Shown piece after piece: positions 1,717-9,986 of a stretch of DNA of 21,860 bases. Source of the DNA: a virus; the IMG/VR virus record IMGVR_UViG_3300008459_000474, positions 1 through 21,860 of that record; one strand, written 5' to 3'. A program made the position numbers and the translations under genes. The stretch's first letter is position 1. Each line of letters begins with the position of its first letter. The notes under the pieces were generated by a model, which saw nothing but the letters and a program-made list of their open reading frames with translations, did not search any database and was not told the DNA's origin.

Positions 1717-3891
1717 TTGTTAATTCAAAAAGATTCTTACAATTCAAAGCTTGATTTTCAAACTATTTTGTCAACTGACAATCTAGCAAGCATATTATCC
1801 GAAGAAACTAAAACGCTTATAGCTAGTGAAGTCATGACTAGATATAACACTGACTTACAATCTCGTAGCGAAAAACAAAAAGTATTACAAGATTTAGTTA
1901 AATGCACTCTAGCTATTGGCGATAAGCGTTCATTTCCATTCGAAGGTTCATCTAATATAATGTTTCCTTTAATTTCTACAGCATGCGTTGATTTTTCCGC
2001 AAAATGTTATACCGAAATTTTTAAAGATGGTAATATTGTAAAAGCCAAAGTTATAGGCAATGATGATGGCGAAGTAATGAAAGACTTAGAAGGCAATGAG
2101 ATGAGAAATGAAGATGGATCTGTTGCTATGCTAGATGAAACAGGTTTGCCAGCAATTCAAAATGTTGGTGCAAAACTTAAACGCGGTCAAAGAGTCGCAA
2201 CAGTAATGAATTATCAGCTAAACGAAGAAATAGAGAATTACGAAAAAGACATGGACGCATTGTTTATGGGCTTAGCGACGCTTGGAATAATGTTTAAAAA
2301 GAATTATTATGACAATAATGACCAATGTATAAAATCAGATTTAATTTATCCTGATAAGCTTATAATTAATGATTTTGCCACATCTTTTGAAGCACCAATT
2401 ACACAAATTATTGAAAAATACCCACAAGATGTTGTTTCGTCAATTCGTAGTGGTGATTACATTGATTTTGATTTTGACCCAAAAGCACAAGATAGTGCAT
2501 CTTTTGATAATTCTTTAGATGCTAACGACGAAAAACAAACAAGTGATGAAGCATCAGCGGGTTTGGTTATTTTCTTAGAACAACACAATTATTTTGATTT
2601 AGATAATGATGGATACCCAGAGCCATATATTGCAGTAGTTCACAAAGCTACAAACAAATTAATAAAGTTAGTAAAAAGATTTAATGAAGAGGATGTTAAG
2701 TATAATAAAAAGCAAGAAATAATTAAAATTAAACCCATAAAATTTTTTACTGCATATAATTTTATTCCTTCACCCGATGGATCTTTTTATTCTATTGGTT
2801 TAGGACACTTATTATACAACATAAATTCTGCGATTAATTCAAATATTAATCAACTCAATGACGCTGGAACATTACAAAATACAGGTGGCGGGTTTATTGC
2901 TAAAACATTAAATATTTCTGGTGGCATGAAGCCCTTTAAATTATCAGAATGGAAAATGGTTGATTCTTATGGTGGAAGTATTCGTGATGCTATTGTTCCA
3001 TTGCCACACGCTGAACCATCACAAACTTTATTTGTTTTAATGCAATTTTTAGTAAATGCAGGTAAAGAATTAGCTTCTTTAAGAGATGTATTGACTGGTG
3101 AAAATGCTGGAAATATTGCCGCTACGACCTATATGGGAATGGCAGAACAGGGACAAAAACAATTTAAGAGCGTATTCAAAAGAATCTATAATTCTTTAAA
3201 ACAAGAAGTTAAGATATTTTACGAAATAAATTCAACTTATTTATCTCAAAAAAAATATTCTGAAATTTTAGATATTAAGTTAAATGAATCACCAAATGTT
3301 AAAGAAGATTTTGATTTAAAAGGTTATGATATTGTTCCAGTCGTAAATCCTGAGAATGTCATTTCAATGCAAAAATTTGCAAAAGCACAATTTTTAATGA
3401 GCTTTATTAATTCGCCTTATGTTGATCAAATGTTGTTGCATAAAACAGTTTTTGAAATAGCTGGAGTTGAAAATTTTGATAAGTTTGTTATTCAACCACA
3501 ACCTCAACCAAATCCTGCCGTTGAATTAACAATGGCACAAGAAGAAACTAAACGCATGCAAATGCAAGCTAATGTTCAAATTAAATCTGCCGAATTAGAG
3601 CTAGAGCAAATGAGACTACAAAAAGAATCGGCAAAAACTGATTCAGAAGTATTAGTTAATTATGCACAAGCGGGCAAATTAGTTAAAGACACTGAAATGG
3701 CAGAAACCAAAGAAAAATTAGACGTTTTGGATAACATGATTGATGCAGAATCAAGACAAAACGAAATGCAAGACCGCAAAGAAGATAGAAAATTTAAAGC
3801 GGCAGTAGAGCTAGCAAAGCTAGAGAATCAACAAGTTAAGGGAATTAAACCTGAAGCTATTGATAATAATATTAATCAAAATAATGAGTAA
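1717..3891 (+). CDS. Portal protein, P22 gp1-like
   Basis: The 724-aa product matches the length of P22 gp1 (725 aa). It would form the dodecameric ring at one capsid vertex through which DNA enters and leaves. Family-like features in order are YNTDLQSR near 43-50, the segment SFPFEGSSNIMFPL (72-85), an acidic DLDNDGYPEPY motif in the central region, and a GENAGNIAATTYMGMAEQ stretch around 460-480 followed by KRIYNSLKQE. A long charged helical, probably coiled-coil C-terminus spans about 590-695, like the P22 barrel. The start is TTG 1717: no ATG lies upstream in frame, and the next one (residue 40) would remove a region that looks conserved. No Shine-Dalgarno is visible. The gene is followed after 3 bases by the 90-aa ORF. 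Confidence 0.9.
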   Translation: MLIQKDSYNSKLDFQTILSTDNLASILSEETKTLIASEVMTRYNTDLQSRSEKQKVLQDLVKCTLAIGDKRSFPFEGSSNIMFPLISTACVDFSAKCYTEIFKDGNIVKAKVIGNDDGEVMKDLEGNEMRNEDGSVAMLDETGLPAIQNVGAKLKRGQRVATVMNYQLNEEIENYEKDMDALFMGLATLGIMFKKNYYDNNDQCIKSDLIYPDKLIINDFATSFEAPITQIIEKYPQDVVSSIRSGDYIDFDFDPKAQDSASFDNSLDANDEKQTSDEASAGLVIFLEQHNYFDLDNDGYPEPYIAVVHKATNKLIKLVKRFNEEDVKYNKKQEIIKIKPIKFFTAYNFIPSPDGSFYSIGLGHLLYNINSAINSNINQLNDAGTLQNTGGGFIAKTLNISGGMKPFKLSEWKMVDSYGGSIRDAIVPLPHAEPSQTLFVLMQFLVNAGKELASLRDVLTGENAGNIAATTYMGMAEQGQKQFKSVFKRIYNSLKQEVKIFYEINSTYLSQKKYSEILDIKLNESPNVKEDFDLKGYDIVPVVNPENVISMQKFAKAQFLMSFINSPYVDQMLLHKTVFEIAGVENFDKFVIQPQPQPNPAVELTMAQEETKRMQMQANVQIKSAELELEQMRLQKESAKTDSEVLVNYAQAGKLVKDTEMAETKEKLDVLDNMIDAESRQNEMQDRKEDRKFKAAVELAKLENQQVKGIKPEAIDNNINQNNE

Positions 3892-3894
3892 ATT

Positions 3895-4167
3895 ATGAGT
3901 CAAATAGAAATGAAAGAGTTAAAAGATTGGTTAAACGATCCAACAGCGTTAAAATTTAAGAAAATTTTATTAAATTCTCGTATTAAATTGTTAAACAGTA
4001 TATCTCATGGATATATTGGACAAAATAATGCATTTAATAAAGACTTGATTCTTAGTTCACTTGGTGGTTGCGAAGCCTTAGAGCAAGTTTCTAATTATAT
4101 TGGATTAAATGCTGAAGAAGATTTAGCAATTTTAATAAACCTTTTTCATGGAGATTCAAATGATTAA
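3895..4167 (+). CDS. Small hypothetical protein between portal and co-chaperonin (90 aa)
   Basis: I do not recognise a named family. The protein is a soluble, mostly helical 90-aa product with no signal peptide or membrane segment. It has an N-terminal stretch MKELKDWLNDPTALKFKKIL, a central LGGCEALEQV and an acidic end. It starts 3 bases after the portal stop and overlaps the co-chaperonin start by 8 bases, so it is co-translated with head genes. Small helical proteins directly after the portal are common in podovirus head operons. A role in prohead assembly or portal accessory function is inference from position only. Confidence 0.75.
   Translation: MSQIEMKELKDWLNDPTALKFKKILLNSRIKLLNSISHGYIGQNNAFNKDLILSSLGGCEALEQVSNYIGLNAEEDLAILINLFHGDSND
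4150..4153 (+). promoter_or_regulatory. Ribosome binding site that fixes the GroES-like start
   Basis: GGAG at 4150-4153 is followed after 6 bases by ATG 4160. An in-frame ATG at 4148 also exists but overlaps this site and has no Shine-Dalgarno of its own, so 4160 is the better start. Many other genes in this window lack such a site, which makes this one informative. Confidence 0.65.
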
Positions 4168-4504
4168 TACTTCTGGTTACAGTGTTCCTGAATATAGAAT
4201 TTTAATTTTGCCTGATGTAGTCGAAGAAAAAACTGCTGGTGGAATAATTATACCTGATTCATCAATAGATACTTTACAAGGAGCTAAAACTTTGGCAACT
4301 ATTATTGATATTGGTGAAAAAGCTTTTGATCAAGGAACTGATAGAGAATGGAAAAATAAACCAAAAGTTGGTGATAAAATTTTAATTCCATCTTATGAAG
4401 GTTATAGATTAAGCAAAGATCAAACTAAAGATGGTAAAGAATATAGAATTATTCTTGACCGTAATATTTTAGCAATTCAAATTAATGAGGAAATATGCCA
4501 ATAA
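4160..4504 (+). CDS. Phage-encoded GroES-like co-chaperonin
   Basis: This 114-aa protein has the Cpn10/GroES plan: a first beta strand EYRILILPD (11-19), then the mobile loop with EEKTAGGIIIPD (22-33). The hydrophobic III triplet there corresponds to the tripeptide that docks on GroEL. A variable roof-like segment follows at about 52-68, then KVGDKILIPSYEGY (69-82) and the closing strands EYRIILDRNILAIQ (94-107). GroES is about 97 aa, so this version is slightly longer. It would cap the host GroEL cage, as T4 gp31 does for its capsid protein, presumably to help fold this phage's capsid or another virion protein. It overlaps the previous gene by 8 bases and the scaffold gene by 10. The fold assignment is strong; the client is inferred from position. 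Confidence 0.9.
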   Translation: MINTSGYSVPEYRILILPDVVEEKTAGGIIIPDSSIDTLQGAKTLATIIDIGEKAFDQGTDREWKNKPKVGDKILIPSYEGYRLSKDQTKDGKEYRIILDRNILAIQINEEICQ

Positions 4505-5499
4505 TTGATCGTTCTGAAGAAATAGATATTGATATTGGTTTAAATTCACAAGAAATTGAGCCAAAAGTTGAGCAAGATAAAAATTTATCTTCTAATCCAA
4601 TTCTAAAAGAAATGGAAGAAGAGGAAATTGAAAAAGAAAATATTATATTCGAAAAATCAACAAAAAGTGAAGAAAAAACTTTTTATGAAACTTTAACTGA
4701 TACAGAAAAAGAAGCTTGGGATCGTGGCTGGAGAACTGGCAAATTTTTTAAAGGAAGATATAAAGATGGAACGGTAAAACCTCATAAAACAGCACAAGAA
4801 TTTCTAGAAATACAGGAAAAAGAAACTCCCGTATTAAATGAAAGAAATCGAAAACTAGCTTCTGAAAAAACAGCTCTTGAAAAAGAAATGAGCGAACTTC
4901 GTAAGCAAATGAATGTTATTTTAAATGTCCAAAAATTTGCATATGAAGATAATAATCAAAAACGATTTCAATCTTTAGATGAAGCTGAAGAAAATGCAAT
5001 TTTAGAAGGTGATGTTGCTAAAGTTAGAGCAATTCAAAAACAAAGAAATGAATTAGAAAAAAATAAAATTTCTTTTACCGAAAATAAAATTGATGAAGAA
5101 ATTCAAGAAGAGCCAAAACAACAAATACAGCCCGAAGATAAAAAAATATTTGATAATTGGGCTCCAGATAACACTTGGTTTTATGAAAATGCTCCAATGA
5201 GAGGATATGCAGAAACTTATTTTGCTACTTTATCAGAGCGGATTCCTCTTCGTGATAGACTAGAAATGGTTAGCGAAGAAATCGAATCAAGATTTAGTGA
5301 TAAATTAAATAAAACTAAAGCTCCAAGTGTAGAAAGTGGTCAAAGAGGTATTAATGTAGGTAAAAAACAATATACTTATAATGATTTGCCTGAAGATGTG
5401 CGTAAAACATGTCAATATTTTGCAAAGAAACACAATTTTACTTCTGCGCAAATTAAAGATATGCAACAAACCGCCATTAATGACTATTTTAATAATTAA
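4495..5499 (+). CDS. Probable capsid scaffolding protein
   Basis: The 334-aa protein lies between portal and capsid genes, where P22-like phages encode the scaffold (P22 gp8 is 303 aa). The first 65 residues are highly acidic and probably disordered. A segment EAWDRGWRTGKFFKGR (73-88) followed by AQEFLEIQEKETPVLNERN (100-118) resembles a pattern I associate with phage scaffold-like proteins. A charged, helical, probably coiled-coil region runs from about 115 to 195 and includes an AILEGDVAKVRAIQKQ motif. The C-terminal end has basic patches, which in scaffolds can contact the coat. ATG 4495 has a good Shine-Dalgarno (GAGG, 4487-4490) and overlaps the GroES-like gene by 10 bases. The function rests on position and overall character more than on a decisive motif. 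Confidence 0.7.
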   Translation: MPIIDRSEEIDIDIGLNSQEIEPKVEQDKNLSSNPILKEMEEEEIEKENIIFEKSTKSEEKTFYETLTDTEKEAWDRGWRTGKFFKGRYKDGTVKPHKTAQEFLEIQEKETPVLNERNRKLASEKTALEKEMSELRKQMNVILNVQKFAYEDNNQKRFQSLDEAEENAILEGDVAKVRAIQKQRNELEKNKISFTENKIDEEIQEEPKQQIQPEDKKIFDNWAPDNTWFYENAPMRGYAETYFATLSERIPLRDRLEMVSEEIESRFSDKLNKTKAPSVESGQRGINVGKKQYTYNDLPEDVRKTCQYFAKKHNFTSAQIKDMQQTAINDYFNN

Positions 5500-5514
5500 T
5501 AATTGAGAAAATTT

Positions 5515-6033
5515 ATGACAAACAAAAATATTGATTCAAACAGAGAAAATTCAAAAGAACATACTCAAGAAAGAGTATCTAAGTATAATGATAGAGAAGA
5601 TAGACCTACTAATCGGGATACAGAAATTATTAAATTACCCGATGGAAGAGAATTTGTTAGAAATCCACGCACATATCTAAAAAGACATGGTGCTTTATCA
5701 GATTTGCCAAAAAAGGCAGGTTTTATAAGACGTTGGGTTTCTAGTAACATCCCTAATCGATTACAAGATTTAATTGATTTAGGATATAAACCTGCTACTA
5801 ATGAAAATGGCGCAGAAATTGCTCCAATCAGAGGTGGTCAAAATAAAATGGGCGAAACATTTATGCGTTATGCCATGGAAATCACTGAGGAAATGAATGA
5901 AAAAATACAAAGAGATAATCAAATTAAAATAAATAATAGGCAACAAGAAAGCATTGATAAACTTGCAGGAAAAGATCTTGGTTTGGGTTCAATGACTTAT
6001 GTTGCACAGGATCAAAAAAAATTAATTAAATAA
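5515..6033 (+). CDS. Probable phage head-associated protein (172 aa)
   Basis: The frame is open from a TTG at 5503, but ATG 5515 is the more likely start, preceded by a weak purine run (GAGAAA). The protein is strongly charged with a low-complexity N-terminus. It then has KLPDGREFVRNPRTYLKRHG, and a core KAGFIRRWVSSNIPNRLQDL that resembles the 'G-[YF]-x-R-R-W-V ... N-R-L' pattern of small phage proteins often encoded near scaffold and capsid genes. The C-terminal third is helical with EITEEMNEKIQRDNQIK. No transmembrane or catalytic motif is seen. It may be a minor head or scaffold-related component; the exact role is unknown. Confidence 0.75.
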   Translation: MTNKNIDSNRENSKEHTQERVSKYNDREDRPTNRDTEIIKLPDGREFVRNPRTYLKRHGALSDLPKKAGFIRRWVSSNIPNRLQDLIDLGYKPATNENGAEIAPIRGGQNKMGETFMRYAMEITEEMNEKIQRDNQIKINNRQQESIDKLAGKDLGLGSMTYVAQDQKKLIK

Positions 6034-6043
6034 TTAAATAATT

Positions 6044-6655
6044 ATGACAAATTCAAATACTCCATACGGATTAACACCCGTTAAGAACTCTCCTTTTGTA
6101 GAGATTCCTAAAAATTATTACTACATTCCAGCTAGTTATGGAACTGCATTGTTTATTGGTGACCCAGTAATCAAAACAGGAACTTCTAATACTGTAAATG
6201 TAACATCTGCGGGTCGTTTTTTTAATGCTGGTTCTTTACCAGAAATCAATAAAGCAACTGCTGGTGATGCTAATAAAATCACTGGTGTTATTATTGGTTT
6301 TTTAGCTAACCCAACTAATTTAAATGTTGCTTACAATCCAGCTTCGACCGAAGCAGTAGCTATTGTTGCTGACAGCCCACTTCAAGAATTTGAAATTCAA
6401 GAAGAAACTGCAGGAACTGCATTAGCTGCAACTTCTGTTGGCTTAAACGCTAACGTAGTATTCGCTGAATCTGGCTCAACTGTCACTGGCTTGTCTGGTG
6501 CTGAATTAGACACTTCAACCCCTGCTACTGATGCAACTTTCCAACTTAAAATTTTAAGATTAGTTGACGCTCCTGATAATGCTATTGGTCAACATGCTAA
6601 ATGGCGTGTTAAAATCAATAACCACACAGAAGCAAACGTAACTACTGGTATCTAA
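6044..6655 (+). CDS. Putative capsid-associated structural protein (203 aa)
   Basis: A beta-rich, Ala/Thr/Asn-rich 203-aa protein with few charges, beginning TNSNTPYGLTPVKNS. This N-terminal 'PYGL.PV' style is one I associate with phage structural proteins encoded just upstream of the major capsid gene. The central region has repeated hydrophobic beta strands (VIIGFLANP, AIVADSPLQEFEIQEE). The region ends with a lysine/asparagine-containing strand. Low charge and abundant Ala/Thr are typical of virion surface proteins. It starts 10 bases after the previous stop and ends 23 bases before the capsid gene. A decoration or minor capsid role is inferred from composition and position. Confidence 0.7.
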   Translation: MTNSNTPYGLTPVKNSPFVEIPKNYYYIPASYGTALFIGDPVIKTGTSNTVNVTSAGRFFNAGSLPEINKATAGDANKITGVIIGFLANPTNLNVAYNPASTEAVAIVADSPLQEFEIQEETAGTALAATSVGLNANVVFAESGSTVTGLSGAELDTSTPATDATFQLKILRLVDAPDNAIGQHAKWRVKINNHTEANVTTGI

Positions 6656-6678: not shown

Positions 6679-7584
6679 ATGTCTATTATAGTAACAGGAA
6701 CAATTCCAAAAGCTCTTAAACCCGGAGTTAAAACTTATTGGGGAGCATACACCGAGGATGATCTTTTAGCATCAAAACTTGTCAAAATGGAGTCAACAGA
6801 CGAACAATTTGATGAAGATGTGTTAATTTCGCCTTTTGGTCTTTTAAAAACTAAAAACGAAGGTGCTGGTGTTGATTATGATTCAATGTCGCAAGGCTAT
6901 GTATCAAGATATCAACAAAGAACTCGTGCATTAGGTTATCAAGTTTCTTGGGAAGCTCGTAAATTTAATAAATATCTTAATGTTGTATCTAAAGGTAATG
7001 AATATTTAGCATCTTCACTTCGCGAAACTAAAGAAGTGGATGTTGCTGATTTATTCAACAACGGTTTTGATGCAAACTACACTTTTGGTGATGGTAAAAA
7101 GTTTTTTGCAACTGACCATCCAAGTCGTGCAGGCAACTTTTCTAACACTTTAGCTACTCCTTCTGATTTATCAGAGGAAGCTTTGGAAGAATTGTGCATT
7201 CAAATTAGAGAAACTAATAACGATAGAGGAATCAAAGCTAAAATTAAACCAACTTTACTACAAGTTCCATCAGCTTTAATGTTTGAAGCTACTCGTATTT
7301 TAGAATCTCAACTTCGTGTTGGATCTGCTAATAACGATGTTAATGCTTTAAAATATATGGGTTTGTTTTCAGGTGGTATTTTAGTTAATCCGCATTTGAT
7401 TTCTGACGACGCTTATTTTATTAAAACAGATGCTCCAGAAGGTGCTAAAATGATCACTGCAATTCAGGGTGAATTTAGCAACGATGGTGCTTTTGAATCA
7501 GGAGATCATAAATATAAAATTATGACTTCTTATGCAGTAGGCGTTACTGATCCTCGTGGCTATTTTGCTTCACAAGGCGTTTAA
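6679..7584 (+). CDS. Major capsid protein, Mu gpT-like family
   Basis: The 301-aa product has the marks of the Mu gpT-like major head subunit group, which has the HK97 fold. Residues 82-93 (TRALGYQVSWEA) precede a long helical arm. A segment KFFATDHPSRAGNFSN (141-156) resembles the 'F..dHp...g..sN' motif. The stretch KIKPTLLQVPSALMFEATRIL (about 188-208) matches the typical 'P..LlVp..l...A..il' strand-helix. A late VNPHLISDDAYFIKTDAP (236-253) matches the usual 'v.p.L.d..a.fl'. P22 gp5 is of a different, larger type (430 aa), so this head is not P22-like in its coat. GC content and codon choice look richer than in flanking genes, as expected for a highly made protein. A hairpin follows the stop. 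Confidence 0.9.
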   Translation: MSIIVTGTIPKALKPGVKTYWGAYTEDDLLASKLVKMESTDEQFDEDVLISPFGLLKTKNEGAGVDYDSMSQGYVSRYQQRTRALGYQVSWEARKFNKYLNVVSKGNEYLASSLRETKEVDVADLFNNGFDANYTFGDGKKFFATDHPSRAGNFSNTLATPSDLSEEALEELCIQIRETNNDRGIKAKIKPTLLQVPSALMFEATRILESQLRVGSANNDVNALKYMGLFSGGILVNPHLISDDAYFIKTDAPEGAKMITAIQGEFSNDGAFESGDHKYKIMTSYAVGVTDPRGYFASQGV

Positions 7585-9233: not shown

Positions 9234-9377
9234 ATGTCCAAAGGTTTATATGCAAATATTCACGCAAAAAAAGCAAGAATAAAAGCTGGTTCTGGCGAAA
9301 AAATGCGTAAGGTAGGAAGCAAAGGTGCACCTACTGCTAAGAATTTTAAACAATCTAAAAAGACTGCAAAAAAATGA
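9234..9377 (+). CDS. Tiny lysine-rich phage protein (47 aa)
   Basis: ATG 9234 opens a 47-codon frame ending in TGA 9375-9377, which overlaps the next ATG as ATGA. The sequence starts MSKGLYANIHAKKARIKAGS and continues with GEKMRKVGSKGAPTAKNFKQ and a Lys-rich tail, so about a third of residues are Lys or Arg. The 'KGLYANIHAK..RI.AGSGEKMRK.G.KGAPTA' pattern is familiar as a conserved small protein in many phage structural clusters. Its function is unknown. The high charge suggests nucleic-acid binding or packing with virion DNA, which is inference. Confidence 0.8.
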   Translation: MSKGLYANIHAKKARIKAGSGEKMRKVGSKGAPTAKNFKQSKKTAKK

Positions 9378-9640
9378 AAAAAAAATCAGTTAATTTAAGC
9401 GTTGGACGGGGTGAAAAGTCCAAAAGCGGAGGACTTACTGCAAAAGGTAGAGCAAAATATAATAACGCAACTGGAAGCAATTTAAAAGCTCCCGTTAGTA
9501 AAGAGCAAGCACAAAAAAGCCCAAAAGCAGCGGCTCGTAGAAAATCTTTTTGTGCGAGAATGTCAGGAGTTAAAGGTGCTACTTCTAAAAATGGAAAACC
9601 AACTCGAAAAGGACTTGCATTAAAAAAATGGGATTGTTAA
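9374..9640 (+). CDS. Small basic phage protein with CARMSG motif, DUF6321-like (88 aa)
   Basis: An 88-aa, very basic protein. Visible blocks are GGLTAKGRAKYNNATGSNLK (19-38), KAAARRKSFCARMSGVKG (51-68) and KPTRKGLALKKWDC at the end. This 'GGL-x-x-x-GR ... TGSNL ... RR-x-SFCARM-x-G ... W-x-C' order belongs to a conserved small phage family that I recall as DUF6321; the family number should be checked. Cysteines at 60 and 88 are part of the conserved blocks. It overlaps the preceding 47-aa gene by 4 bases (ATGA) and ends 1 base before the ParB-like gene. Role unknown; its charge fits nucleic-acid contact. Confidence 0.8.
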   Translation: MKKKSVNLSVGRGEKSKSGGLTAKGRAKYNNATGSNLKAPVSKEQAQKSPKAAARRKSFCARMSGVKGATSKNGKPTRKGLALKKWDC

Positions 9641-9641
9641 A

Positions 9642-9986
9642 ATGAAACCAGTTAGAATTGACGATTTTAATTATTTAGATTCTAATTATGTAAGCAATGG
9701 CAATCATTATGATGTGCAAGATTTAATTAAAGCTGCAGAAAATTTAGAGGTATTTGATTTACCTCTTGTTGCGGTAAACATGAATCATAATATTTGTCAA
9801 GCAACTTTAACTAGCTTTATTTATCATTGGAAGCGAGTTGAAAAAGCAGATTTACAATATCCAGTAATCATTGATTCAACTGGCTATATTTGCGATGGTT
9901 GGCACAGGGTAGCAAAAGCAATCTTGGAAGGCAAAACAACAATTAAGGCAAAACGATTAGAAGTGATGCCAGAACCTTTTAAATAA
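9642..9986 (+). CDS. ParB/sulfiredoxin-like domain protein (114 aa)
   Basis: A compact 114-aa protein. The core YPVIIDSTGYICDGWHRVAK (73-92) followed by AILEGKTTIKAKRL matches the ParB N-terminal-like fold signature 'P-h-h-h-D-x-x-G-x-I-x-D-G-x-H-R'. In ParB this region binds CTP, and in other family members it acts in nucleases or as a kinase-like fold. There is no helix-turn-helix or other DNA-binding domain, so a partition role is unlikely. Small single-domain versions of this family occur in phage structural clusters without known function. It follows the 88-aa basic gene after 1 base and is co-directional with the tiny genes around it. Confidence 0.75.
   Translation: MKPVRIDDFNYLDSNYVSNGNHYDVQDLIKAAENLEVFDLPLVAVNMNHNICQATLTSFIYHWKRVEKADLQYPVIIDSTGYICDGWHRVAKAILEGKTTIKAKRLEVMPEPFK

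Follow-up and report, generated by a model that had tools for sequence, protein, structure and literature searches.

Why should a virus carry a co-chaperonin gene among the genes for its head, and which protein would such a co-chaperonin serve? The best-studied phage GroES lid is gp31 of T4, and the need for it is usually explained by a larger client. The question is raised here by one whole IMG/VR virus record of 21,860 bases and 32.7% G+C (hereafter the window), which holds a gene for a Cpn10/GroES-like co-chaperonin (4160–4504, plus strand, 114 codons plus stop) inside its head operon. The sequence-only reading of this locus had proposed a dedicated folding partner for a gpT-like capsid protein or for the portal, possibly with a changed cage volume.

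A Cpn10 gene between the portal and scaffold-like genes

The assignment of the 114-residue protein to the GroES-like family is borne out by profile searches, predicted fold and mobile loop. The protein matches the Pfam Cpn10 family (PF00166) with 44.8 bits against a curated cut-off of 21.1 (E 1.3e-11) and the PHROG family of co-chaperonin GroES (phrog_3188, E 6.2e-14), and it retrieves solved Cpn10 structures by sequence at an E-value of about 3e-6; T4 gp31 is absent from its sequence-profile matches up to E 10. A GGAG ribosome-binding site (4150–4153, plus strand), read from the sequence, precedes the start at 4160; an alternative in-frame ATG at 4148 would give a product of 118 residues but overlaps this site. 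The median dN/dS value of 0.19, calculated over 29 close homologues in pairs that share the window sequence and are not independent, indicates that the gene is under purifying selection.

The major genes of the window all lie on the plus strand, in the order terminase large subunit (96–1637; phrog_2, E 6.4e-21), portal protein (1717–3891; phrog_1216 portal, E 4.7e-26), a 90-residue open reading frame (3895–4167), Cpn10, a scaffold-like gene (4495–5499), two small genes and a gpT-like capsid gene. Cpn10 is wedged between its neighbours by overlaps, as had been noticed from the sequence, with 8 bp shared with the 90-residue frame upstream and 10 bp with the scaffold-like gene downstream. The 90-residue frame has a homologue in 50 loci and no family match in profile searches. 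The product of the scaffold-like gene (39 kDa, pI 5.0) is a putative scaffold because its gene precedes that for the capsid in 118 loci; it has no family match, and a tblastn search with this gene was also empty. The two small genes encode a basic head-module protein of 176 residues (5503–6033), placed by synteny in 117 loci, and a head-module protein of 203 residues (6044–6655), placed by synteny and a match to phrog_37556 (E 1.9e-11). The major capsid protein (6679–7584; 33.2 kDa) is of the Mu gpT-like type (Pfam PF10124, E 8e-9), and its structural model (pLDDT 85.7) matches HK97-fold capsids at Z 14–17; sequence searches of the PDB with the capsid and portal proteins of the window gave no matches.

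Tail, ejection and head-closure genes follow 3′ of the head genes, and matches to an ejection protein and to head-closure protein Hc3 suggest that the window derives from a podovirus with a P22-like tail. No DNA-level relative of the window was found among 50,697 phage records. Further downstream of the head genes, positions 9374–9640 encode an 88-residue protein with a DUF6321 domain (E 6.5e-25) and positions 9642–9986 a 114-residue protein of phrog_17560 with a ParB-like ‘DGWHRVAKA’ motif.

Predicted fold, mobile loop and distinguishing features

An AlphaFold model of Cpn10, built from 44 aligned relatives, has a pLDDT of 80.6 and falls to low values only at about residues 21–38, which comprise the mobile loop, and at the C terminus; low values in the former region are expected of a free mobile loop. 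Foldseek matches the model to Cpn10 structures with E-values down to 2e-7 (Hsp10). In VIA-align comparisons the Cpn10 of Thermus thermophilus (Z 9.8, r.m.s.d. 3.3 over 81 residues) and T4 gp31 (Z 9.7, r.m.s.d. 3.2 over 97 residues, 7% identity) are effectively tied as nearest structures, residues 2–108 of the model lying on 5–111 of gp31 with equal span, and quinone reductases and their kin follow at Z 5.6 and below. The structure prediction thus agrees with the GroES β-barrel fold proposed from the sequence.

The core of the mobile loop, EEKTAGGIIIP (residues 22–32; 4223–4255, plus strand), aligns with the mobile loop of host GroES, and the GGIIIP segment singled out by the sequence-only reading is indeed retained, GGIII occupying residues 27–31 in canonical form. 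The invariance of EEKTAGGI among many of the loci selected by GroES was discarded as a measure of conservation, being a bias of the search pattern, and conservation was judged instead on members selected by their capsid protein. Among these the core remains GroEL-like, with Thr at residue 25 and Gly at residue 28 in 93% each, and Ile, Leu or Val at residue 29.

Three features set the Cpn10 proteins of this head module apart from host GroES. Immediately after the mobile loop they share an insert (residues 41–44; 4280–4291, plus strand) of exactly four residues in 54 of 54 module sequences, which is lacking in all 48 host GroES sequences; the alignment with human Hsp10 shows a four-residue gap at the same place. 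The roof segment (residues 52–70; 4313–4369, plus strand) carries an Ala55-Phe56 motif, and the combination of Ala, Cys or Ser at position 55 with an aromatic residue at position 56 is found in 49/54 module and 0/48 host sequences. Likewise, Asp100 is present in 50/54 module sequences and in none of the 48 host sequences, which mostly have Glu or Gln there. The window Cpn10 conforms to the head-module type in its slot between portal and scaffold, its insert at residues 41–44 and its Ala55-Phe56.

The model shows no strand in the roof at residues 52–72. The roof is of ordinary length: its flanking glycines enclose 18 residues, where most hosts have 17, which rules out an enlarged roof loop. Residues 52–68, singled out as a loop in the sequence-only reading, are the ordinary roof segment and not an addition. 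The extra length of the protein resides instead in its termini, in the insert and in about 3–4 residues near positions 85–88, the last largely limited to the clade that holds the window. Long extensions at the N or the C terminus occur in some relatives.

Association with one capsid lineage

Gene order was read with a profile built for each head-module gene across 80 loci fetched by Cpn10, 39 loci fetched by the capsid protein alone, and annotated phages. The order portal–Cpn10–scaffold–176-residue protein–203-residue protein–capsid is found in nearly all of 118 loci, up to the contig ends. The capsid-selected set provides a fair test of position, and in all 29 of its 39 loci that reach far enough upstream Cpn10 lies directly before the scaffold gene; contig ends account for the seeming loss of Cpn10 in others. 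The synteny comparison called for by the first reading therefore reveals a fixed slot, and the position of Cpn10 is not peculiar to the window.

A phage collection gives a similar picture when a capsid relative is defined by a coverage of at least 80%. All 21 records that qualify contain a Cpn10 gene (17 detected by HMM and four by tblastn), which lies inside the head operon in 18 of them. MW202601/604 and vir526 depart from this, with Cpn10 located outside the head operon; two of these off-operon copies were aligned and both are without the module signature, and they look like separate acquisitions. No Cpn10 was found in Mushu and two Helicobacter prophages, whose gpT capsids are only distantly related, nor in three Schitoviridae that combine a related portal with an N4-type capsid. 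Its absence from these six phages indicates that the link follows the capsid lineage better than the portal family, and the Schitoviridae speak against a link through the portal family only. The phages compared are few and related to one another, so that the counts do not represent independent events.

Two of the off-operon genes have settings of their own. In vir526 (BK063670.1), a tailed virus assigned to methanogens (Methanomicrobiales) that has a distant gpT-like capsid, the Cpn10 gene (L127:1004–1360) lies just upstream of the terminase gene and is without the head-module signature. In MW202601.1, which encodes a distant capsid relative, a different Cpn10 (L224:2200–2664) is found near a gene for a single-stranded DNA-binding protein.

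The fixed association bears on a more general role, in which the phage lid would add to, or outcompete, host GroES for many phage proteins without having a client of its own, and would sit in the head operon only because this ensures late and high expression. The canonical mobile loop, the ordinary roof length and a capsid protein of only 33 kDa are all in keeping with such a supplement, as is the observation that T4 gp31 can replace GroES for Escherichia coli proteins (PMC3012670, PMC6318259). However, a general supplement would be expected alongside many capsid types and at varied positions, whereas one slot and one capsid lineage are seen, and the module Cpn10 bears a sequence signature of its own. 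We consider this role rather unlikely.

A lineage separate from host GroES

In a phylogenetic tree, 54 module Cpn10 proteins and 42 GroEL-adjacent host GroES proteins are split by one branch with support of 100/99, in an alignment of 95 columns with unsettled bootstrap, long phage branches and hosts chosen by similarity. Rapid evolution of the phage proteins could have aided this separation. Fewer than 60% of rows have residues in the insert columns, which were presumably excluded from the tree by the fill rule. When the tree was repeated with the GroES proteins of module-carrying genomes the split was kept (one change; SH-aLRT 95). Seven genomes that carry the module each encode a canonical GroES (97–125 bits) in addition to weaker phage-type Cpn10 proteins, so that a host lid is at hand in any case. 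A recent origin of the phage gene by capture from a host is disfavoured by the 100/99 branch, also when GroES from the same genome is included. The comparison suggests that the head-module Cpn10 has probably been passed on together with the head module for a long time, instead of being acquired from hosts again and again.

Two metagenome-assembled genomes (MAGs) touch on the possible hosts. A 10.8-kb contig of a close relative (L128, RFYG01000045.1), with a Cpn10 92% identical to that of the window, was assigned to a proteobacterial MAG of 1.4 Mb. This MAG encodes a GroES–GroEL pair of its own, and a 16S gene was located in it; the assignment could reflect a host link or a binning artefact. 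The actinomycetotal MAG of locus L185 (G024) gave three weak Cpn10 matches on separate contigs (L214, L216 and L217), and several such viruses may have been binned with it.

Comparison with T4 gp31 and other phage co-chaperonins

In T4, the capsid protein gp23 requires both GroEL and gp31 for folding, and GroES is no substitute for gp31 in this task (PMC3012670). The mobile loop of gp31 has 22 residues against 16 in GroES and its roof loops are missing; its chamber is 8% larger, and gp23 is about 56 kDa (PMC6318259). Like gp31, which works with host GroEL on the T4 capsid protein, the window protein is a phage-encoded Cpn10 fold (Z 9.7), and its insert is reminiscent of the longer mobile loop of gp31; unlike gp31, it has a roof segment of ordinary length, and the two are only 7% identical.

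These comparisons allow a modified cage to be weighed, in which, as with gp31, the insert and an altered roof would give a head protein a larger or differently shaped chamber; this overlaps with a host-GroEL lid for the capsid protein and adds the change of cage. The four residues inserted next to the mobile loop in 54/54 module sequences, the longer loop of gp31 (PMC6318259), the alignment of the model with gp31 at equal span over 97 residues and the lack of a predicted strand in the roof at residues 52–72 would all suit it. Yet the roof is as long as in hosts whereas gp31 is without roof loops, identity to gp31 is very low, a 33-kDa capsid protein needs no larger chamber, and a monomer model is silent on chamber volume. 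A modified cage is thus unlikely, and the change of cage volume entertained in the sequence-only reading is not favoured, given the ordinary roof and the small capsid protein; for the same reasons the explanation by client size used for T4 cannot be transferred to this protein. A smaller gp31-like change, judged from the insert after the mobile loop, is possible.

Closer parallels are found in cultured phages. HTVC023P-type pelagiphages share a core of 13 genes that includes GroES (PMC9599517), and for Roseobacter phages CRP-901/902 GroES is labelled in a figure legend (PMC10149686). Their head operons resemble that of the window: Cpn10 has the portal side before it and a scaffold-like gene after it, and beyond the latter come two small genes and one for a homologous gpT-like capsid. 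Their GroES proteins are only about 30–36% identical to the window Cpn10, and several of these phages show longer N termini and additional small genes between portal and Cpn10. Gene order and a homologous capsid are also shared with Planktothrix phages Pag-Yong1/Pra-JY27, Alcaligenes phage vB_Af_QDWS535 and Caulobacter phages RW/GB2A, which differ in their hosts (cyanobacteria, Alcaligenes and Caulobacter), in their divergent sequences and, for QDWS535, in an altered mobile loop. GroES is annotated in the deposited records of Pag-Yong1, QDWS535 and RW. A phage GroES in a gpT-like head operon is therefore already annotated, and the window Cpn10 adds a further case. GroEL-adjacent bacterial GroES proteins share the Cpn10 family, mobile loop and barrel, but are without the four-residue insert and the Ala-aromatic roof motif and form a separate branch.

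A strict link between Cpn10 and capsid, or a common insert, is stated in no paper that we found, the survey of virioplankton chaperonins by Marine et al. (2017), known here through its citation in PMC7185714, lying outside this comparison. A Southern Ocean survey reads viral GroEL/GroES as cold adaptation (PMC8407431); for the Cpn10 lineage linked to gpT-like capsids, a head-assembly role is favoured over this interpretation.

A probable lid for host GroEL

GroEL (PF00118) was found in none of the 31 records searched, 14 of which are phage records searched over their full length, most deposited as complete genomes. For these records a phage-encoded GroEL is rejected as the partner, and host GroEL is presumed in its place. 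Taken with the fold, the mobile loop and the analogy to gp31, the comparative evidence makes it fairly likely that the window Cpn10 acts as a phage-encoded lid on host GroEL, one that has been passed down with this capsid type and probably serves the capsid protein. Cpn10 subunits would assemble into a heptameric ring, and their mobile loops would attach it to host GroEL so that the folding chamber is closed. The protein would be expressed with the head genes, late in infection, and its main client would be the gpT-like HK97-fold capsid protein, whose gene lies 2 kb downstream. That Cpn10 has instead abandoned GroEL and become a ring that acts in head structure or assembly, for example with the portal or scaffold, is very improbable, because the GroEL-contact motif, needless for such a role, is kept in capsid-selected members, although the fixed slot between portal and scaffold genes and the long terminal extensions of some relatives would suit it.

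Under the reading as a lid for host GroEL, the earlier proposal of a dedicated head partner is plausible for the capsid, with indirect support from the 29/29 synteny and the separate lineage; the portal is less likely to be the sole client, since Schitoviridae with a related portal and phages with only a distant capsid are without Cpn10. The capsid, portal, scaffold and small head proteins all travel together, so that synteny alone cannot tell which of them is the client. A 33-kDa capsid protein fits the normal GroEL–GroES chamber, and its size does not explain a special lid. Specificity, if present, is more likely a matter of surface chemistry or loop dynamics than of chamber volume. No experiments on the window Cpn10 or its relatives were found in the literature. 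It can be proposed more tentatively, from sequence comparison, that one lineage of gpT-like HK97-fold heads requires a co-chaperonin of its own, marked by the insert and inherited with the head genes across the phages of many bacterial groups, even though its capsid protein is small.

The interest of the system lies in this strict link of one capsid lineage with a lid of its own, in combination with a small capsid protein. It argues that GroES is here a head-assembly gene and not an auxiliary gene borrowed from the host for stress or cold. The cultured phages of Caulobacter, Alcaligenes, Pelagibacter, Roseobacter and Planktothrix make the specificity of lid and client directly testable. If the proposed dependence is true, lid–client specificity in these phages would not be about size and would have evolved separately from that of T4 gp31.
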